29,103 bases of DNA from the IMG/VR virus record IMGVR_UViG_3300010354_000431, positions 1 through 29,103 of that record. One strand, 5' to 3'. The notes beneath the pieces were generated by a model. It searched no databases and was not told where the DNA came from. It was given only the letters and a program-made list of their open reading frames with translations. The position numbers and the translations under genes were made by a program. Source of the DNA: a virus. Positions 4,115-28,795 of the stretch are shown piece by piece (position 1 is the stretch's first letter; every line of letters starts with the position of its first letter).

Positions 4115-4339
4115 TTACCTTTTGATTAATGTTTGAATCATTGTTTTTATTTCATAGATATCATTCTTTAGAGAATCAATTTCACTCTGTTGTTTTAGCA
4201 TCAGACTTTCTCGACTCTCGGCTATTTTTTTCTTCATCTTATATTCGTTCACTTTTTCTTCAGACACATTGATAACAGCATGGCTCGTGATATCACGAGC
4301 TAAACTAGAATCTGTTTCAATTTGCACAAAATTATGCAT
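4115..4339 (-). CDS. Small coiled-coil virion protein (74 aa)
   Basis: The N-terminal part contains SSLARDITSHAVIN (residues 11-24), a pattern I associate with a small conserved protein of marine T4-like phages. The rest is a long amphipathic helix rich in K, E, I and L (residues about 28-73), probably a coiled coil. Its start overlaps the end of the 1856-aa gene by 8 bases and its stop lies 3 bases before the short-tail-fibre start. It may be a fibre adaptor or assembly factor; the function is not established. No SD is obvious, which fits translational coupling. Confidence 0.65.
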   Translation of the reverse strand: MHNFVQIETDSSLARDITSHAVINVSEEKVNEYKMKKKIAESRESLMLKQQSEIDSLKNDIYEIKTMIQTLIKR

Positions 4340-7300
4340 ATGCTATCACTCTCAATGCTTTCACTCTTGGTACACGAGAAGTACTAGATGATTTCATTAC
4401 AATTTTTACTTGAGCAATATCAAAATCACTTACATCTAGATTTATTTCAGCTTCTGTGAATTGACGAGAATTTTCTAATTTTCGTATTGGTTTAGTAAAA
4501 GTAGTAACTTTCGTAAACTCAACTGATGAAAAATTCGTACCTTGCAATCCAGTCTTGTAATATATTACTAAGTCTGCTAGACTTGGAACATTGCAATCAA
4601 ATAAAATTCTAAGATTAGTTGAAGGTTGATTTAATTTCACTTGTTTAGTAACATATTTAGCTGTAGCCGAACCAATTTCAGGATACTGCTCATTATCATT
4701 AGTAGTGTTTTCAATAACATTAGAAACTAATGTTGCAGAACAACGACTGACGTCAATTACTGGAGAAATATTATCTTTAGTAGTTGACATCGTAATTACT
4801 GGAGCAAATGATGCAGTTCCATTTTCTTCAGTCTTATCTTTTAGCTTTTGTTGTGAATCGAAAATAATATCTTGATCTAGAGGAATCGAAACATCATTGA
4901 GTTTAGCAGAAAGAGAAGTTCCTGGAAGAACAATTCTATTTACATTTATATTAGCTAAATCATAGAATATATCTGCATTAACGTGTTGATTAACTAAATT
5001 AACAGTTGCAGAATTAACTGTACTGAATACGGCTCTGTTTATTCTAAACTTAAGATCTTGATTTTGATCAGCAGTCCATGTGGATGCATTCTGTGACTTA
5101 AACAATACACCAGCATAAGGCTGCTGCGATATCAATCCAGATCCATCAACATCGAGCCTACCTGCTTCAGAAATCCAAACTTTATATTTTGCAGAGTCTG
5201 AAATAATTACTAGTGCATACTCTACACCGTTTTGAAGATATACTGGACTTGTAAATTTAAAGTTAGTAGCAACTGCGCCTTTATTGTCAACATTTACTTC
5301 CGAAGGACGTTTTATTACTTCAGAAAATGGTACAACCATTGGACCAGGATAGCCATTTACAACATTTCGTATCTGTATCTTAATAGGTAGATTTTCATCC
5401 ACTTGAGCAAAGAATAAATCTACATCTGTTATAAATGCCCCACCTTCTATATCAATGAGGAACGTCTGTGCTAAAGGATCATACCATCCGGTGTCAGACA
5501 CTACGCGAGATCCAGAAGTCGTAACTATTTCGGTTTTATCAGGCACTTTTTCTGTGACCACTGACGCAGTTTTTGTAGAAAGGATTGTTCTTTCTTTTAT
5601 TTCTAAAACACCTTTAGCAGTATATTCTGCTTCAGCTGATGTAGAAGCATTTGCTCTAACATTATCTGCATTGTCACTGAATCGTAAAACTCTAGTACCG
5701 GTACGGAAACTCATTCCAGTTCCGTTTGGTATAGTAAATGTGCCAAACAGTTGACCAGTCTTACTTGTTACTAAGTTAGAAGGAGTAACAATATTTCCCA
5801 CTTTCTTAATTTTCTTATTTGTGTCAAATTCAGATTGTAGATAATATATCGTATTACCTGAATCACTGCTAAGTGAACCAGAACCACCTTTTATATTTTC
5901 AACATATGCATAGTTATTTGTACCGTATGTTTCTTGTCCTACTATAACACATGTAACTCCAGTTGGTGTTGCATTAGCACTGCCCACTTTAATGTATTCA
6001 TAAAAAACTTCACCATAAGTATATGCTGTTGTTACATCACCTTGAGAAGTTTTACGAGCATCACTATTAATATTAGATCCTACGTTTACATTTACTAAGA
6101 ATGTAGGAATAGCTGTACCACTTGTGTAAGGTATAAATGTCATAACCTTAGAAGGCGTAATATAACTATCGACATTTATATTATCAAAGAAAGCATACAT
6201 TCTAGTATCAGGCTTTAGACTATCACCTCTAAATAATACTTTACGTGAACGTATGTATGGAATAAGCTCAGTACTTATTAACTTATCTTCAATAATATTG
6301 TCTGTGACGTTTGATTTAATGAATGTGCTAACACCGCCAGTATAAGCTTTAGTACCAGTTTGCGCGTATGTTTCTACAGTAAGTTCTCTTCTAGCCCAAC
6401 CATCTGCTTCTGGGCCTATTCCAAATGTTTGATCAAGCCAAGCACCTCCATCTCCCCAACGTCTATCGCCGCTGTATGTTTGTGTACCCGTGCTAACTTC
6501 ACCAGCCCAATTAACTGACCACGATTTGTAAACAGTTCCAAGTACTCCACTACTTTCAGCTTTAGAAACTATTGCATCATATTGACTCGTATCATTGATG
6601 ATAATATCTGGGCGGCGTTGAGTTTCATACCATGTATCATTCCAAGGATTGATCTGCAGCGATCCATTAAATACGAAAATATTAAATGGATTAACTGATT
6701 CACTATGAGAAGCTCTTAGTTGAGAAACCAGAGGAGTCTTAGAAGCAATTTTAAGAGTGATTAAATCTCCATTAATTTCATAGTTTAAATTGCTTCTATC
6801 AAGACTTGTTTCAACTTTTTCTAATAAAGCTATATTATTAGTGTTAAAGAAAGGTCTTAATTCTCCAGCTTTACTGTCAATAGATGCTTTCCAATCAAGA
6901 GAAGATGCTAAACCAATGCCTTGTCCCGTGAAATCATCAACTATAAATCCATTTTGAGGACGCTCTAAACCATAATTATCATATGCTTTATTGCTTAAAG
7001 TGTTTTGTTCAAGCAGCGAGAGAGTCGTGTAGTATTCCAGATTATTAATACGACTTTCGAGACGTCCTATGTCTCGCATAGTGTATCTCTTGTTTTCAAT
7101 CTTATAAGGAACTACGCTTGCAGTTGAACCTTTAAACGTGTATGGTTCAACATTGAATGTATATAAGTCCATTGCATCTTTTGGAGATGCGGGAACTTTA
7201 GGATTAGAATCTGATATGCCTTTAGTAATAACATACTCACCAGTAGTACTTAGAGATAGTTTGTCTATTCGTCCAAGATAATAGTCATATTTAAATGTAG

Positions 7301-9902
7301 TTTGTTCTGCGTATTTTGGAATAATACCGGTATACGTGCCATCACTTGCGCGAACTGGTCTAAAATCTATGGTATTAATTTGATCACTGCTGAGTTCTTC
7401 ATAAGAAATATTAGAATTTACATGAGTATACGAATTTATCGCAAAAACATCACCACCACCGTGATTGAAATAACTATAATTCACTTCCAATGTACCGGCA
7501 GGAGCTGTTTCACCTGAACGAAGAGAAACTCTAGCTAGATCATAATGAGTAGATCTAACTCCATTGTCAAAATTAAATTTAGATGTTACATCTGTAACGG
7601 TTGAGCCTACAGTAGAAGTTACAGATTGCAGTTCGTATCCGTCTGCTTTACTTAACAATGCCACACCACTAGTCAGTGTAATAGTTTCATTTATTACATT
7701 AGTCAATGTCTTATTCTTTATTGTACTGATATCTGTTGCATACACCGCATATATAATATCATATTCTCCGCTTGCTCCAAACTTAAAAGCAACAGAACTA
7801 GCTGTATATGCTGTTATTGTATATTCTGTTGCTCCAGGATTTGCAGAAGTGGTATATGTCATGTGATTACCAGTACCACGACTCACAACAATATAATTTT
7901 TTTCGTCAGTGATAACACCTAATGAATATACACTTTCTGGTACAGTTGAAGTTGTTCCTGGCGAAGTAGTAGTTTTCTTATAAAATGAATAAGAATATTC
8001 TTTGGTCGACTTAGTAGCATATACAGGAATACTGTAGTAGGAATTAATTAAATTTGGCTGATTGATAGTAGCTTCTACTCTATAAATCGCAGTTCCCGTA
8101 GTTATACTGATATTTGATTCAATTGTTATTGAACTATTACTTGTTACAGCTGTAACTCTGTATTCACTATCTGCTATAGATACATAATCACCAACTTTTA
8201 GATCTGCTATAAATGTAGTATTAACGCCATCAACTGTTGCTGAATTAGTCGACTCTTTAAGCGTTCCAACTAATTGTACTTTAGTTGGAACTATTCTTCC
8301 AGAAAAGCGTAAATACTGATTAGCTCCTGTCGCTGAATACACAAATTTTGCATCGCGACTAAACACTTTACCCGATTCAACTGACATGTTAAATAAAAAT
8401 ACTTTATATGTCAATGGACTTACAGTATGCAGTTGAATTTGTTTTACTCTAGCAGTAGCTACCAAAACTCCACTAGCAGGAACTGTTCCAGCATTGCCGT
8501 ATCTATCATAGAATTGTAAATCAGTGTTTATACTTGGCAAAGCATTTACAGATTTTAATATAATATAATTTCCAGGACTAGTATCAACAGGTCCTGATTT
8601 TACATAAGAAGAAGCTTCACGCGCTTTATCGAGAATAAGATATTGAGTTATAATTTTTTCAATCTCATATCCACGTACATACGCTTTACCTGGTTCAACT
8701 GCAAGAGAAATTTTAGTATTAAGCGCGTTTATACTGCTAGTAGTGCCAGTAGTTGGTCCTTGATAAAGGCCATAATTATAAACTGGTGTATTATCTGCCA
8801 ACCAATTAGGACTTGCAGCAAAACTTCCAGTTGTCCCAGATGTATGATCTGTTATACACTTATAAGTATTTCCTCCTGAAGTTACTATATCACCTTTAAC
8901 ATAAACGGTATTATTAGCCCAAGCACCGCGATCATTATTGCGATAGTCTCTTATTTGGATTGGAAATTCACGTACCGTGTAATCACCGGATTCATCGAAT
9001 GTGCGGCGTGCTAGTGTTTTTTCAATTTGAGCGTATTGAGTCTTATCTACTAAAAATTGAACAACACCGCTTTTAAGAGTCAATAGAGAAATAAATTCAT
9101 CTGCGTCTACTAAAGAATCATATGGTTTAGAAGTTAATACTAATTCGATTGAGTAGCGCGCAGCACCGGGTGCTGAATAGTTTGGAGCACCTAGTGCGTT
9201 GTCTAATAAGCTCTCGTCGTCTTCAGGATAAACTACACTTTCATTAACTTGTAATCCAATTTTAGCACTGGCAGCTGTGCTGTACTTTGAAACAACAGTC
9301 GTTTGTTGTTCAACAAAAACAAAATGATTTTTTATATAATATACGCCTTCTTGTATCGTTGCTGTAGTGCCTTTGCCTATAGCAGGATTCAGTGTTGTAT
9401 TTGTTATTTGAACTGTAAAATCTAATCCAGTCGTACCATCTAATGGACTTATCACTTCACCGGGTGAAAAAGTACCAGATGTAGTTCCATTTCCACGGAT
9501 ATATTTTACAAATAATGTATCAGGTTCTGTAGTAGAATTATCAATAGCTTCTTTTGGCGTAGCAGCAAGAACTATAGCTTGGACACCAGAACTATTCTGA
9601 TAAATTTTTCCAACAGCAGTTGATATAACAGAGAAAGTTTTTACTATAGCACTACCTGATATATTTTCTGCTAATTTCACATACGAGGTATTATCATCGT
9701 ATGAAATTTGTCCAGGAATAATCATAGCACCATTCTTAAACATATGGTCGCCATGACGCTTAACTTGTTGTTGAAGAATTGTTTGAAGTTGCGTCAATTC
9801 TCTAGCTTGGACTGCATAACCTGGACGAAATAAAATTCTATAGAATTTCTTGTTTTCGTCGTAATCATCGTAAAATGGTTCAATATTAAAATTTAGTGCC
9901 AT
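4332..9902 (-). CDS. Giant DUF4815-type virion structural protein (1856 aa)
   Basis: The N-terminus (NIEPFYDDYDENKKFYRILF, then RPGYAVQARELTQLQTILQQQ) is the hallmark of DUF4815 proteins, large virion proteins of myophages and prophages. At about residues 320-368 lies a compact segment with W-x(5)-Y-x(2)-GD-x-V ... G-x-x-Y-x-C ... HTS ... W, resembling a family 5/12 carbohydrate-binding module. A Trp-rich stretch follows in the middle (GDRRWGDGGAWLDQTFGIG), then a segment with SRKVLFRGDSLKPDTRMYAFF. The C-terminal part has WYDPLAQTFLID and a beta-sandwich-like region. It sits in the position of T4 genes 9-11, between gp8 and the short tail fibre, so it may serve as a peripheral baseplate or fibre-connecting protein; that is inference. 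AAGAG precedes the ATG. Confidence 0.8.
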   Translation of the reverse strand: MALNFNIEPFYDDYDENKKFYRILFRPGYAVQARELTQLQTILQQQVKRHGDHMFKNGAMIIPGQISYDDNTSYVKLAENISGSAIVKTFSVISTAVGKIYQNSSGVQAIVLAATPKEAIDNSTTEPDTLFVKYIRGNGTTSGTFSPGEVISPLDGTTGLDFTVQITNTTLNPAIGKGTTATIQEGVYYIKNHFVFVEQQTTVVSKYSTAASAKIGLQVNESVVYPEDDESLLDNALGAPNYSAPGAARYSIELVLTSKPYDSLVDADEFISLLTLKSGVVQFLVDKTQYAQIEKTLARRTFDESGDYTVREFPIQIRDYRNNDRGAWANNTVYVKGDIVTSGGNTYKCITDHTSGTTGSFAASPNWLADNTPVYNYGLYQGPTTGTTSSINALNTKISLAVEPGKAYVRGYEIEKIITQYLILDKAREASSYVKSGPVDTSPGNYIILKSVNALPSINTDLQFYDRYGNAGTVPASGVLVATARVKQIQLHTVSPLTYKVFLFNMSVESGKVFSRDAKFVYSATGANQYLRFSGRIVPTKVQLVGTLKESTNSATVDGVNTTFIADLKVGDYVSIADSEYRVTAVTSNSSITIESNISITTGTAIYRVEATINQPNLINSYYSIPVYATKSTKEYSYSFYKKTTTSPGTTSTVPESVYSLGVITDEKNYIVVSRGTGNHMTYTTSANPGATEYTITAYTASSVAFKFGASGEYDIIYAVYATDISTIKNKTLTNVINETITLTSGVALLSKADGYELQSVTSTVGSTVTDVTSKFNFDNGVRSTHYDLARVSLRSGETAPAGTLEVNYSYFNHGGGDVFAINSYTHVNSNISYEELSSDQINTIDFRPVRASDGTYTGIIPKYAEQTTFKYDYYLGRIDKLSLSTTGEYVITKGISDSNPKVPASPKDAMDLYTFNVEPYTFKGSTASVVPYKIENKRYTMRDIGRLESRINNLEYYTTLSLLEQNTLSNKAYDNYGLERPQNGFIVDDFTGQGIGLASSLDWKASIDSKAGELRPFFNTNNIALLEKVETSLDRSNLNYEINGDLITLKIASKTPLVSQLRASHSESVNPFNIFVFNGSLQINPWNDTWYETQRRPDIIINDTSQYDAIVSKAESSGVLGTVYKSWSVNWAGEVSTGTQTYSGDRRWGDGGAWLDQTFGIGPEADGWARRELTVETYAQTGTKAYTGGVSTFIKSNVTDNIIEDKLISTELIPYIRSRKVLFRGDSLKPDTRMYAFFDNINVDSYITPSKVMTFIPYTSGTAIPTFLVNVNVGSNINSDARKTSQGDVTTAYTYGEVFYEYIKVGSANATPTGVTCVIVGQETYGTNNYAYVENIKGGSGSLSSDSGNTIYYLQSEFDTNKKIKKVGNIVTPSNLVTSKTGQLFGTFTIPNGTGMSFRTGTRVLRFSDNADNVRANASTSAEAEYTAKGVLEIKERTILSTKTASVVTEKVPDKTEIVTTSGSRVVSDTGWYDPLAQTFLIDIEGGAFITDVDLFFAQVDENLPIKIQIRNVVNGYPGPMVVPFSEVIKRPSEVNVDNKGAVATNFKFTSPVYLQNGVEYALVIISDSAKYKVWISEAGRLDVDGSGLISQQPYAGVLFKSQNASTWTADQNQDLKFRINRAVFSTVNSATVNLVNQHVNADIFYDLANINVNRIVLPGTSLSAKLNDVSIPLDQDIIFDSQQKLKDKTEENGTASFAPVITMSTTKDNISPVIDVSRCSATLVSNVIENTTNDNEQYPEIGSATAKYVTKQVKLNQPSTNLRILFDCNVPSLADLVIYYKTGLQGTNFSSVEFTKVTTFTKPIRKLENSRQFTEAEINLDVSDFDIAQVKIVMKSSSTSRVPRVKALRVIAYA

Positions 9903-18060: not shown

Positions 18061-20511
18061 TCATACTACCAAGACAAATTGACCAAAATCGCCAATTCTT
18101 TTGTGATCTCTCATCGTAAACACTTGTTGTTTAGATCCAACATATTTAAATGAAACATGAATCCAAACTGTATTTGAGCCCTGATATTCCAATAATAGCT
18201 GATTGTATGGAATCACTTTCTGTATTTTTTGGATTGCTTCATAATGACCCTCACGATCAAAATTGGGAATAACGATATCTGCAGCACACCCTAGATAATG
18301 ATCTGAAGTTTTTGATGAACCTACGACATCTTCAGGACGTCTAAATCCAGAAGTGATTACCATGTTTGGATAAAGATTACGTATTGGTTCTAAACAATTT
18401 TCCGCTAAACCTTTCAAATTACATACTATTTCCTGTATACTAAGTCCTTGCTGTGCAATAATAGGTCTACTATTATTTTTAGTAAGAGCTGATAACGTGA
18501 AATTTTTAGAAAGTATAAAAGATGGTTCAAAAGTCTCTTTCATTGCTATTGCATCGCAGCTCTTATCAAGAGCAACAATCGAAGGAGGTGTCACTTCTTG
18601 TATTTCCTGTTGTGTTCCGCTGTCTATTTCTTCTTTCTTAATTGCACCGCTATCTATTTGTCTTTGTAAGTACGCAGTATAATCACCTTCTTCAGGAGTT
18701 TCGTACTGCCCCGCAGCAGATGTACTTCTCGTCACAACAGTTAATTTACCTAAATTCGGCATTTGAGCAGACACTTTACTTGCAGGAGCACTTAAGTTTG
18801 ATGATGAAGCAAATTTTGCTCCACTTGCTATTCTTACTAATCCTCCATCAGCTGACAATATTCCTCCTGCACGAATATCGACTGAACCAGAACCAGAAGC
18901 ATTTAAAGATCCGTTTGATTTAATATTGACAGTACCACCTTCGATAAAAATTGAATTAGCTTTAAGTTTAAATGATTCTGCGACAGAAGCGTTTAAACTT
19001 CCACTTACATTTAAGTTTGCATCATTATAGACGTTAATGTTGGTAGCACCATTTACATTTAAATTCATCGAGTTCTTAACTAAAATATTTTGTGCGCCGT
19101 CTACAGTTACGTTTAATGAACCATTAACTTGCACATAGCCATTTCTTTCAAAAATTTCATACCCATCGCCTACTATGCGATTAACGCGTGTTCCATTAGC
19201 ATCTATTTCGCTAAATGTACCGGACTTGTGATAAATATGAATTCTTTCGCTGTTTGGTGTATCGTCGAATTCCAGAACGTGTCCAGATTCAGTTTGCATT
19301 ACGTGATTGAATGGATATTGCGCATTATAAGGAATAGGTGATTGATCCCAAGTGCTTCCATTTGCAGTCGAAACATTTTTAAGTTGTGCTGCTTCTTTCT
19401 TATATACAATAGTCTTATTAATCTCTTCATGACGCGCGAGTCTATTTGTATCAGGTTCATTAAAATATAATGGATATTTTCTATTTGGATCTGCAAACCC
19501 AATAGTACTTGAAGAAGACTGTGTTGCCACATTATTCAAATCAGCATCATTTTGTATTTGCTCTGGCAATTCGCCTGCAGAATTTGGAACACCATTCTTT
19601 AAAAATAAATCTTTTTCTGAAGATCGGCGTTTTACAAGACCTGCTAATTCCACTCCTCCAGCTTTAGTCCATTGCAAAAATCCAGCAGCTGCATCTAAAT
19701 ATTTTCCAGAATTTAAATCTTTAAACATTGTCGATTTTGTTAAATTTCCTGCGCCAAGATTATATGTAAAAGAACAAAGCGCATCGAACATAGACTGTGT
19801 TATCAAAGCGCGCGTGTTGGATTTTACTGCAGGAACAAAATCTGTATTAAGATCATCGATTAAATACTTTTCAGCCTGTTCTACAGTGATTGTCATTCCA
19901 GGCTGAACTGGCACACCATTTATTCGTGTCGTTCCATAACCTATAGTCCAAACACCAACTGAGTCTTGATAGGACGTTAAGCGTAATCCCTCATATCTTT
20001 TAATAAGTGATACACATTCAGAACTTGGGGTAAACTCTATAGCTCTTTTTAATTTGTTTGTGTTTTCTAAAGTAACTTCAGTAGTGCTTGTAGTAACTGG
20101 ATTTCCAGAAGAATCTACAACTGCATTACCAGAACCATCTAATAAAACATTTGACTGCGTATTAGTCTCTTTTATTTCACTGTCTATCTTAATCTTTATA
20201 GTAGTATCATCTACTGTTAAATTTTCAGAAGAGCTCTGTGGAATTCCGCCTATAGATCCAAGTATTATAGGATATTGCTTGTCATCATCTTGAAACATTA
20301 CGATAACGCTAGTACCTTCAACTAATCCAAGAGGCGTAGTCCCTATTCCTGATAATGCAGCTGAAGTTATCGGCTGCATTGGAATAGCCCAAGGTAAATC
20401 GTGTGTAGGTAACTTTATAGTATCATGAGTATGCAAACCTATAACTCGTACTTTACATCTTCCAAGTTTTAAAGGATCATTGCGATTTTCTATAATTCCA
20501 ATGTATAACAT
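18061..20511 (-). CDS. 5: Baseplate hub and tail lysozyme gp5, with extra M15-like peptidase domain
   Basis: This is the central spike and cell-wall hydrolase, 816 aa (T4 gp5 is 575). Residues 1-90 form the N-terminal OB-fold. Residues about 155-307 are a GH24 lysozyme, with E174, D183 and T189 in the same spacing as T4 lysozyme E11/D20/T26, then TIGYGTT. Residues about 455-570 are the beta-helical needle (NVNGATNINVYNDANLNVSG and similar). The C-terminal part, about 685-800, resembles a peptidase M15 (VanY/DD-carboxypeptidase-like) domain: TSGFRRPE, H738 in SDHYLG, D745 in CAADIV and H785 in WIHVS would be the zinc ligands. T4 gp5 lacks this last domain. Neighbours are gp25 and the gp27-like hub. 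Confidence 0.93.
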   Translation of the reverse strand: MLYIGIIENRNDPLKLGRCKVRVIGLHTHDTIKLPTHDLPWAIPMQPITSAALSGIGTTPLGLVEGTSVIVMFQDDDKQYPIILGSIGGIPQSSSENLTVDDTTIKIKIDSEIKETNTQSNVLLDGSGNAVVDSSGNPVTTSTTEVTLENTNKLKRAIEFTPSSECVSLIKRYEGLRLTSYQDSVGVWTIGYGTTRINGVPVQPGMTITVEQAEKYLIDDLNTDFVPAVKSNTRALITQSMFDALCSFTYNLGAGNLTKSTMFKDLNSGKYLDAAAGFLQWTKAGGVELAGLVKRRSSEKDLFLKNGVPNSAGELPEQIQNDADLNNVATQSSSSTIGFADPNRKYPLYFNEPDTNRLARHEEINKTIVYKKEAAQLKNVSTANGSTWDQSPIPYNAQYPFNHVMQTESGHVLEFDDTPNSERIHIYHKSGTFSEIDANGTRVNRIVGDGYEIFERNGYVQVNGSLNVTVDGAQNILVKNSMNLNVNGATNINVYNDANLNVSGSLNASVAESFKLKANSIFIEGGTVNIKSNGSLNASGSGSVDIRAGGILSADGGLVRIASGAKFASSSNLSAPASKVSAQMPNLGKLTVVTRSTSAAGQYETPEEGDYTAYLQRQIDSGAIKKEEIDSGTQQEIQEVTPPSIVALDKSCDAIAMKETFEPSFILSKNFTLSALTKNNSRPIIAQQGLSIQEIVCNLKGLAENCLEPIRNLYPNMVITSGFRRPEDVVGSSKTSDHYLGCAADIVIPNFDREGHYEAIQKIQKVIPYNQLLLEYQGSNTVWIHVSFKYVGSKQQVFTMRDHKRIGDFGQFVLVV

Positions 20512-25837: not shown

Positions 25838-26551
25838 ATGGCTTTACCAATGGCAAATACACCGCGATATAAATTGACAATACCTTCTAGCGGAAAAAGT
25901 GTAACATACAGACCATTCTTAGTTAAAGAAGAAAAGGCCCTATTGATAGCGCAACAGAGTGAAGATTCTGAAACGATGATTACGACTTTAAAATCAGTTA
26001 TCGAATCATGCATACAAGATCCGATAAAAGCAAGTGATCTAGCAATATTCGATATAGAATACATCTTTACGCAGATCAGATCAAAATCAGTAGGTGAAAT
26101 AGTCAACTTAGTGTTAAAGTGTGATGAATGCGAAACCGATAAAGCATCTGTTTCATACGAAATAGACTTAACTAAGCTAAAAGTAAATATTCCAGAAGGG
26201 CACGATAAAACAATTCCTTTATTTGGAAATGTTGGTGTTATAATGAAATATCCTTCTCTAGAATTACTTAAGAAATTAGAAAATGTTAATACAAGTGATG
26301 CAGAAGCAATCTTCAATATCATAACATCGTGTATTGATTCAGTATATGATTCAGAGCAAATATATTCGGCAAAAGATCATAGACCTGAAGAAATGAGGCA
26401 GTTCGTAGATAACTTGACACAAGAACAATTTATGAAGTTACAGAAGTTTTTTGAAACTATGCCAAAGTTAGAAGAAAAGGTTTCTTATAAATGCCCTGTG
26501 TGTAGTAAAGAACACGAGAAGTATATAAGAGGACTAGACTCTTTTTTCTAA
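25838..26551 (+). CDS. 26: Baseplate hub assembly protein gp26 / tail assembly chaperone
   Basis: This 237-aa protein belongs to the T4 gp26 family. Signatures are ATIP-like N-terminal strands, YRPFLVKEEKALLIAQQSED, and FDIEYIFTQIRSKSVGEIVN. Four cysteines, C95/C98 (CDEC) and C219/C222 (CPVC), probably bind zinc. T4 gp26 (208 aa) is needed for hub assembly. AAGGA lies 8 bases before the ATG. The gene ends in CT TTT TTC TAA: a T TTT TTC heptamer directly before the stop, with AAGAGGA 8 bases upstream and an open -1 frame. This and its position before the tape measure gene suggest it also encodes a frameshift product, as lambda-type gpG does. Confidence 0.9.
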   Translation: MALPMANTPRYKLTIPSSGKSVTYRPFLVKEEKALLIAQQSEDSETMITTLKSVIESCIQDPIKASDLAIFDIEYIFTQIRSKSVGEIVNLVLKCDECETDKASVSYEIDLTKLKVNIPEGHDKTIPLFGNVGVIMKYPSLELLKKLENVNTSDAEAIFNIITSCIDSVYDSEQIYSAKDHRPEEMRQFVDNLTQEQFMKLQKFFETMPKLEEKVSYKCPVCSKEHEKYIRGLDSFF

Positions 26552-26736
26552 TTTGTTTATATCATGATAATTTGCAAAATTACTATAAAATGAATTTTGC
26601 GCTTATGCAGTATCATAAGTACAGTCTAGGGGAAATTGAGGATATGATTCCCTTTGAAAGAGAGATTTATATTTCTCTGTTGATTCAGTATTTGGACGAA
26701 GAAAAACAACGATTAGAAGCACAAAAGAGTAAATAA
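25838..26736 (+). CDS. Predicted -1 frameshift product, gp26 fused to the 48-aa ORF (299 aa)
   Basis: This is an inferred second product, not a separate gene. If ribosomes slip back one base on T TTT TTC (26542-26548), the next codon is CTA at 26548. The frame then stays open through 26733, adding 62 residues to the 237 of gp26. The extension begins LICLYHDNLQNYYK and then contains the whole 48-aa ORF. The -1 frame is open from 26509, just before the slippery site. In lambda-like phages the G and G-T proteins are made this way at a few percent ratio and both chaperone the tape measure. Confidence 0.55.
26527..26548 (+). promoter_or_regulatory. Programmed -1 frameshift signal (SD-like element plus T TTT TTC)
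   Basis: AAGAGGA at 26527-26533 is followed after 8 bases by the heptamer T TTT TTC (26542-26548), in the X XXY YYZ phase relative to gp26. A TAA stop comes directly after. The layout resembles E. coli dnaX, where an SD-like element about 10 bases upstream stimulates -1 slippage. A hairpin (26574-26600) lies further downstream than usual. Confidence 0.6.
26574..26600 (+). repeat. Inverted repeat with the 48-aa ORF start codon in its loop
   Basis: GCAAAATT (26574-26581) and AATTTTGC (26593-26600) are perfect complements with an 11-base loop that contains the ATG at 26590. The 8-bp stem is AT-rich and so weak. It may hinder independent initiation of the 48-aa ORF or pause ribosomes after the slippery site; its distance from that site, 25 bases, is long for a classical stimulator. 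Confidence 0.5.
26590..26736 (+). CDS. Small ORF, second part of tail chaperone pair (48 aa)
   Basis: The product reads MNFALMQYHKYSLGEIEDMI then PFEREIYISLLIQYLDEEKQ. The 'SLxEIEdMIPFEReiYisLL' pattern is typical of short proteins placed just before the tape measure gene, and of the T part of tail chaperones in other tailed phages. Upstream of the ATG there is no SD sequence (TTACTATAAA), and an inverted repeat encloses the start. This argues that much of its expression may come from frameshifting out of gp26. It ends 1 base before the tape-measure ATG. Function by analogy only. Confidence 0.7.
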   Translation: MNFALMQYHKYSLGEIEDMIPFEREIYISLLIQYLDEEKQRLEAQKSK

Positions 26737-26737
26737 A

Positions 26738-28795
26738 ATGGCCAAAAAAACTAATATCACAAATGTCATAAATGTCAATACCGTAGGGCAAGAAAGTTTT
26801 ACTGCTCTTCTTGACGTTCAGAAAAAATCAGTCGAACATTTAGACACGATATCATCAGCGCTCAAACAATCGCTTATAGCTCAGCGATCATCTGTTATAG
26901 AACAATTAATTATAGCTAGAGATTTTCATACACAAACGCAGATATTTAAAGATATTAGTAAAACGCTTGAGGATATAGCGAAGTCACTTAAGCTGATGGC
27001 TCAATCATCAGCAACTTTAACAAGTGGAAATACGAGCTCTTCTAAGACACCATCGGCTATAGCCACCGTTGGGAAAGAAGAAAAACAAGAAGCACAGCGT
27101 TCTCAAGAAGCACAGAAGAGCGTCTTAGTTAAGATTGAAAAGAATACAGAAGGATTGGGTAGTTTAGCGAAAGCATCTAAGCCAGCCGCTGCAGGTGGAG
27201 ATGGTGGATTGGGATTAGGCTTAACTGCACTAGCGGCTGGGCTGGGTGTAGTCGTAGGTGCAATGAAAGCACAATTAGATACAATAAAGTATTTTTCAAA
27301 GTTACTAATGCCAACCTTGGGAGCACTGTTTGATACAGTAAAGTATTTTTCAAAGCTAGTAGTACCAATCTTGGGAGCAGTATTTGACGCAATAAAATAT
27401 TTTGCAAAGTTATTAACTCCAGAATTTGTTATAACAAAAGCGCAAAAAGCAATAGCATCTTTTGCTGCCGGTATTAGTATGTCTTATGACTTATTGAAAC
27501 TATCAATAAGTGAAAAGCTTTCTTCTATAACAAAAATATTTGATAACATAGTAGATACTATGAAAGTTGCTATATCAGAAAAGCTTTCTTCTATAACAAA
27601 AGTATTTGACAGCGTAGTCGATACTGTGAAAGTTACCATATCAGAAAAGCTTTCTTCTATAACAAAAATATTTGATAACATAGTAGATACTATTAAAGTT
27701 ACCATATCAGAAAAGTTCCCATCTATAGCAAAAATATTTGACAACATAGTAGACTCGGTGAAGGGATTCTTTACTCTCGCATCTGAAGAATCTACGATAG
27801 CAAAGTTCATTAAAAATATAATGTCTGGCTTAAATGTGATTATAGAGCCATTCGCAGATGCATTTAAAATCGTAAGAGAATTTTTCAGTGGACCAACTTC
27901 TGCTGTGTTTGAAACTATAAAAGGAATATTCTCGACTATAGGTAGTACATTCGATGATTTTGCAAAATTATTCTCTACTGTCGCAAAAGTAACTTCTAAA
28001 TTATTAGTACCTTTAAATATTATAATGACTCTCTGGGATACCGTCAAAGGTGCTATTGAAGGTTACGAGGAAGAAGGAATAATTGGAGGAATAAAGGGCG
28101 CAATAAAAGGATTCTTCAACTCACTGATATTTGGCCCAATTGATATGATCAAAGATGCTATGGCGTGGGTATTAGGATTCTTTGGATTTGAAAATGCTAA
28201 AGAAACTCTTAAGTCATTTAGTCTACAAGAAATGTTTAAAAGCTATGTTGATATGATTTTTAGTCCTATTGACACTTTTAAAGCTATAGTTTCTAAAATT
28301 AGTGACTTTTTTTCTGTATTTAGAGGCTTAGAAATACCTGGATTTGGATTTAAAATTCCCGATTGGATTCCAAAGATCGGAGGCAAAGAATTTAAATTCG
28401 GCCCTTGGTATCCATTCGGCAAAAATATGACACAAATGGTTGATGGAGTAGTAGGAGATATCACTAAATCTCAACAGGATAAACAGGATGCAGAGTCTGC
28501 TAAAATTGTACAAGCTACTAAGTTCCTAATGTCTGGCAACAAAGGATCTGATAATCAAATTATTAGTCCCGAAGAAGTTAATGCTTATAGACCAAATAAT
28601 TCTGACTTAGTTAGAGCAGGAACTAATCAAGTTAATGCTCTTCGTGAAAATAAAGCTGGTGGTGCTACTACTGTCGTTGCTCCCGCAATTAGTACTGTCA
28701 ACAATAGACAAACACAAGTTGCAAGAATAGAAGCACCTATAAGAAATAATGATTCAACGTATGATCGCTATATGTATGATCGCGTTGGTTGGTAA
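26738..28795 (+). CDS. Tape-measure-like hub protein (gp29 position)
   Basis: This 685-aa protein begins with MAKKTNITNVINVNTVGQES and has a helical N-terminal region (residues about 20-95). A Ser/Lys/Gln-rich linker follows, then a Gly/Ala hydrophobic segment (about 153-176) long enough to span a membrane. Two sets of tandem repeats come next: three 18-aa units (181-230) and four 22-aa units (257-344). Further amphipathic segments and a Pro-containing region (PGFGFKIPDWIPKIGGKEFK) precede a polar tail. Long helical, repeat-bearing proteins with hydrophobic segments just after tail chaperones are tape measures. T4 gp29 (590 aa) has that role and is part of the hub. Direct similarity to gp29 is not clear to me. 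AAGAG lies 8 bases before the ATG. Confidence 0.75.
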   Translation: MAKKTNITNVINVNTVGQESFTALLDVQKKSVEHLDTISSALKQSLIAQRSSVIEQLIIARDFHTQTQIFKDISKTLEDIAKSLKLMAQSSATLTSGNTSSSKTPSAIATVGKEEKQEAQRSQEAQKSVLVKIEKNTEGLGSLAKASKPAAAGGDGGLGLGLTALAAGLGVVVGAMKAQLDTIKYFSKLLMPTLGALFDTVKYFSKLVVPILGAVFDAIKYFAKLLTPEFVITKAQKAIASFAAGISMSYDLLKLSISEKLSSITKIFDNIVDTMKVAISEKLSSITKVFDSVVDTVKVTISEKLSSITKIFDNIVDTIKVTISEKFPSIAKIFDNIVDSVKGFFTLASEESTIAKFIKNIMSGLNVIIEPFADAFKIVREFFSGPTSAVFETIKGIFSTIGSTFDDFAKLFSTVAKVTSKLLVPLNIIMTLWDTVKGAIEGYEEEGIIGGIKGAIKGFFNSLIFGPIDMIKDAMAWVLGFFGFENAKETLKSFSLQEMFKSYVDMIFSPIDTFKAIVSKISDFFSVFRGLEIPGFGFKIPDWIPKIGGKEFKFGPWYPFGKNMTQMVDGVVGDITKSQQDKQDAESAKIVQATKFLMSGNKGSDNQIISPEEVNAYRPNNSDLVRAGTNQVNALRENKAGGATTVVAPAISTVNNRQTQVARIEAPIRNNDSTYDRYMYDRVGW
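27278..27427 (+). repeat. Tandem 54-base (18-aa) repeats in tape measure gene
   Basis: Three units start at 27278, 27332 and 27386, the last partial: DTIKYFSKLLMPTLGALF, DTVKYFSKLVVPILGAVF, DAIKYFAKLLTPEF. Spacing is exactly 54 bases. DNA is similar between units (for example AAGTATTTTTCAAAG in the first two). Confidence 0.9.
27506..27769 (+). repeat. Tandem 66-base (22-aa) repeats in tape measure gene
   Basis: Four units start at 27506, 27572, 27638 and 27704. Each follows ISEKLSSITKIFDNIVDT then (M/V/I)KV(A/T), with the fourth more diverged (ISEKFPSIAKIFDNIVDS). The first three are nearly identical in DNA over GAAAAGCTTTCTTCTATAAC, which points to recent duplication. Confidence 0.92.

Follow-up and report, generated by a model that had tools for sequence, protein, structure and literature searches.

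Probable expression of a gp26-gp51 fusion by -1 frameshifting in a marine T4-like phage and its relatives

Frameshifting reportedly appears conserved in several groups of T4-like phages, with 26 and 51 said to be separate genes of T4. The chaperone genes of T4-type phages were identified by Vladimirov et al. 2022 (Virology 566:9-15), according to later accounts (PMC12846349, PMC10885494). As that work is summarised in the PRFect paper (PMC10885494), some T4-like phages dispense with frameshifting and have two genes, one short and the other longer and fused, and the paper on phage Adele (PMC12846349), citing Vladimirov et al. 2022, treats poly-T slippery sequences as an established feature of the TAC-N genes of T4-like phages. 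The first-pass annotation of the DNA analysed here had known of no description of such a frameshift for T4-type gp26 and taken it as undescribed, wrongly in view of the chaperone genes and poly-T sites that Vladimirov et al. 2022 and PMC12846349 have. The gp26/gp51 locus is, on good support, a further instance of the already described T4-like frameshift, now with wider comparative evidence; as far as these accounts describe the system of Vladimirov, Gautam and Davidson 2022, the genes are the same, there are two forms, and a poly-T slippery site lies in TAC-N.

The window, by which we mean the whole 29,103-base stretch of the virus record, carries the locus in the following arrangement:

25838-26551, + strand: gp26, putative short chaperone form (TAC-N, gpG-like), 237 aa, assigned from PF12322, phrog_150 and the N-terminal fold
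26527-26533, + strand: SD-like AAGAGGA, 8 nt 5' of the heptamer, seen in the sequence, a weak match in this phage
26542-26548, + strand: slippery heptamer T TTT TTC in the X XXY YYZ phase of gp26, seen in the sequence and kept across relatives
26548-26736, + strand: -1-frame extension, 62 aa plus stop, gp51 domain (putative TAC-C, gpT-like), matching phrog_634 at 4.7e-26
26549-26551, + strand: gp26 stop TAA, seen in the sequence immediately 3' of the heptamer
26738-28795, + strand: tape-measure-like protein, 685 aa, with phrog_58 (tail length tape measure protein) as its best tape measure PHROG match, at 1.9e-13

Profile searches match the gp26 protein to PF12322 (T4_baseplate) at 3e-64 and to phrog_150 (baseplate hub) at 6.3e-70. 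The gene closes with GAC TCT TTT TTC TAA. Across the main genes of the window, 9,473 codons in all, there are just three in-phase T TTT TTN, of which only this T TTT TTC sits at the end of a gene. In order, the genes of this region are those for head closure, DNA end protector, tail tube, small terminase and gp26, followed by the -1 ORF and the tape measure gene, which places the pair directly 5' of the tape measure gene. Several particulars of the first-pass annotation were confirmed at this point: the heptamer at the end of gp26, correct to the base in its X XXY YYZ phase and with TAA next; the AAGAGGA element 8 nt upstream of it; and the -1 frame free of stops from 26509 to 26733, which is closed by TAA at 26734-26736. 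Its placing of the pair ahead of a tape-measure-like gene is borne out by the phrog_58 match.

The first post-slip codon of the -1 frame is CTA (26548-26550), and the fusion junction reads SFF-LICLYHDNLQNYYK from the sequence. The 62 post-slip residues align with profile positions 58-117 of phrog_634 (baseplate hub assembly catalyst, gp51), the homology beginning at the slip point, 5' of the ATG at 26590. The 48-aa ORF that starts at this ATG, earlier proposed as the T part, does lie in the open -1 frame and would be gpT-like, but the added part is really 62 aa, and it is not anonymous, being the gp51 domain. Although phrog_150 is for the most part a gp26 profile, the same residues also match its C-terminal end, which suggests that this family probably includes database members joining gp26 and gp51. 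The -1 domain consists of three helices and is conserved from the first post-slip codons on in all families examined.

Other features of the window may be recorded here. The tape-measure-like protein (26738-28795) contains internal repeats built of KYFSKLLMPTLGALFDTV / ISEKLSSITKIFDNIVDTMKV units. On the minus strand, a gp5-like hub protein (18061-20511) matches baseplate hub/lysozyme profiles and has two separate endolysin profile matches, at residues 145-364 and 649-793, and 4332-9902 encodes a large, conserved phrog_358 protein of 1,856 aa with no function assigned.

How would one locus supply both a short and a long protein? We consider it very likely from the sequence evidence that ribosomes slip by -1 at the end of gp26, yielding gp26 together with a gp26-gp51 fusion. 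We infer the occurrence of slippage, its efficiency and the roles of both forms along the following lines. On reaching T TTT TTC, ribosomes translating gp26 would have tRNA-Phe paired to both TTT and TTC. A minority of them would move back by one base before decoding the adjacent TAA, and go on through 62 -1-frame codons to the TAA at 26734-26736. Two products would result, namely gp26 (TAC-N) and the gp26-gp51 fusion (TAC-NC) of about 299 aa. If lambda gpG/gpGT is a guide, both forms may act on the neighbouring tape measure protein: the shared gp26 part would bind it, and the extra C-terminal helical domain would recruit tail tube subunits in a fixed, low proportion.

The comparison of gp26/ORF junctions among related phages, proposed by the first-pass annotation as a check, was run on 261 usable loci from four scans (relatives of this gp26 and of four other gp26 proteins) and from public records, grouped at 70% amino acid identity of gp26 into 66 clusters. 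We observe an in-phase T TTT TTN within the last 25 gp26 codons, together with a -1 frame leading into the gp51 domain, in 63 of the 66 clusters and 240 of the 261 loci. The stop follows the heptamer immediately in 22 of these 63 clusters and after one intervening codon in 37 (together 59/63). Heptamer-bearing clusters include cyanophages, KVP40-type Vibrio phages and phages of Rhizobium, Sinorhizobium and Pseudomonas, and the G+C content of the fetched stretch reaches 57% among them. The three clusters lacking the heptamer are two of Ackermannviridae and that of Vibrio D509.

Two kinds of locus depart from this arrangement in ways that deserve description. In the Ackermannviridae loci L090 and L176-L193 the gp51 domain still follows gp26 in the -1 frame, but a T TTT TTN is absent (TTTTCATTTAATTTTTG context), and several of these loci are without an ATG at the junction. 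One locus of a heptamer-bearing cluster (L145, IMGVR_UViG_3300049043_000112) has gp26 and gp51 in a single frame (…EGLTSFWLGMAHVDLASYYK…), which apparently arose by a two-base loss at the T run and represents either a real fusion or an assembly error.

The sequence just after the slip evolves as codons of the -1 frame and fits no other frame. Over the first 16 post-slip codons, read in the -1 frame, third positions have 615 substitutions and the other positions 270 and 205, and codon changes divide into 395 synonymous and 360 non-synonymous; for the other frames the split is 127/659 and 77/715. The substitution counts are pooled, this phage and its four nearest relatives giving too few changes over the 14 codons before the ATG.

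In the EG motif preceding the slip, 36 of 46 clusters encode Glu by GAG, compared with 27% overall (GAA makes up 73% of Glu codons), and most relatives have GAGGG or GGAGGG at the position of AAGAGGA. The GAG preference points to a GAGG-type sequence kept some 9-10 nt upstream, much as signals of the dnaX type have it; the excess of SD-like 5-mers upstream is modest (23 against 15.7 expected). A downstream stimulatory RNA structure was rejected, since the single-sequence fold gives a z of about -1 and the consensus of 15 relatives is nearly empty. As no such conserved structure is found, the visible signal consists of the heptamer, perhaps with the SD-like element. A more specific proposal, to which we attach considerable doubt, is that the fusion is the only gp51-containing product here, its dose being set by the stop-adjacent heptamer, where slip is pitted against termination, and by the SD-like stimulator, a design not described for T4-type chaperones.

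Could the gp51 part be made without any ribosomal slip? Re-initiation, whether independent or coupled, would have ribosomes stop at the gp26 TAA and restart at the TTG at 26572 or the ATG at 26590 to produce a small separate gp51. Both start codons exist in this phage, the TTG (+8) being the only one up to codon +11 and the ATG standing at +14; many public records annotate gp51 as a separate CDS; and the junctions of Vibrio D509 and some Ackermannviridae, which lack the heptamer, read TAATG. Against this stand residues conserved 5' of the first start codon, in this phage and in many families, and the rarity of usable starts: between the upstream -1 stop and codon +11 inclusive, there is no ATG, GTG or TTG in 25 of the 63 clusters, and GTG or TTG are the only start codons in 12 further ones. 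S-WAM1 (L272) and ACG-2014b (L092) carry an intact gp51 domain for which no CDS can be annotated, and none is annotated in their public records. Six clusters have a -1 stop just two codons ahead of the first post-slip codon, which leaves the heptamer itself as the place where the frame must switch. Re-initiation gives no reason for the retention of the heptamer. We regard re-initiation as improbable.

The remaining explanations concern the T run. Slippage during transcription would yield mRNAs with an altered number of U, and with them the fusion, an account suited to the 12 clusters with a run of 8 T and the 7 clusters with 7 T; such slippage usually needs runs longer than 6 T, however, and only 6 are present in 44 of the 63 clusters, this phage among them, and the heptamer never departs from its 0-frame phase. 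With the run too short in so many clusters, we reject transcriptional slippage as highly improbable. The heptamer might also be a mere by-product of a conserved C-terminal FF in an AT-rich genome, with no decoding role, and FF is indeed invariant in the gp26 protein and TTT the commoner codon. Under a null model holding amino acids fixed and applying each cluster's own codon usage, however, a T would precede the first TTT in 23.4 of 63 clusters, and it does so in all 63 (log10 P -29.7, a value that is only indicative and overstated, as clusters at 70% identity are related and not independent; the 63 were preselected for the heptamer, the fair comparison being 63/66). The -1 domain is, moreover, conserved directly after the heptamer. 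Codon statistics and conservation rule out a chance origin, unless codon usage is badly misjudged, and we leave it only a vanishing probability. The programmed -1 frameshift put forward by the first-pass annotation is supported by the presence of the heptamer in 63/66 clusters, by selection in the -1 frame and by the start-codon-free junctions.

What would the two products correspond to in better-known phages? The T4 genes 26 and 51 are separate and divergent. T4 gp26 matches the gp26 profile (6.5e-18) and not that of the -1 domain, and T4 gp51 matches both, the former along residues 13-186 (3e-6) and the latter along residues 206-244 (9e-5). On these alignments T4 gp51 resembles the fusion protein, supplied by a gene of its own with gp26 and gp51 parts in frame, and T4 gp26 resembles the short form. 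An AlphaFold2 model of gp26 has a pLDDT of 86.6, and the best PDB match to its N-terminal domain is 2ob9, the tail assembly chaperone of HK97 (first in both comparisons, with Z 7.8 but a Foldseek E of 0.23), followed by the prophage-type structures 3fgx (Z 7.5) and 3klu (7.1) before a drop to 4.7, all these Z values lying below 8, a level where common arrangements also turn up. A search for sequence relatives of solved structure gave none that was convincing for gp26 or the -1 part. Since T4 has the short and long forms as genes and the HK97 chaperone ranks first, gp26/gp26-51 is, judging by alignment and model, the probable T4-type counterpart of lambda gpG/gpGT, and the earlier analogy of gp26 with gpG and of the downstream ORF with the T part holds in the comparative tests.

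A two-form tail chaperone expressed by frameshifting would then be near universal among the sampled marine and related T4-like phages, with T4, the textbook phage, as the exception with two genes. In many public genomes the gp51 domain is unannotated or has been given an arbitrary start, and a joined CDS would be appropriate.

Set beside T4 itself, in which the long form is the separate gene gp51, this phage would obtain both forms from one locus and a -1 shift. The likeness to lambda gpG/gpGT and its conserved frameshift (Xu, Hendrix and Duda 2004) lies in a short and a -1-extended form encoded 5' of the tape measure gene. The two pairs are unrelated in sequence as far as tested, and gp26 is longer than lambda gpG, with a zinc-finger-like C-terminal part. 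The lambda heptamer is G GGA AAG, from which the T TTT TTC found here differs. HK97 gp13 (2ob9), the top-ranked fold match to the N-terminal domain of gp26 (1-85), has no detectable sequence similarity to it, and gp26 has about 150 further residues. The chaperones of Vandenendeviridae and Andersonviridae (PMC12846349), which belong to another phage family, likewise have a -1 shift at a poly-T motif, GTTTTT in their case, at the end of TAC-N, an arrangement that the locus described here would share.
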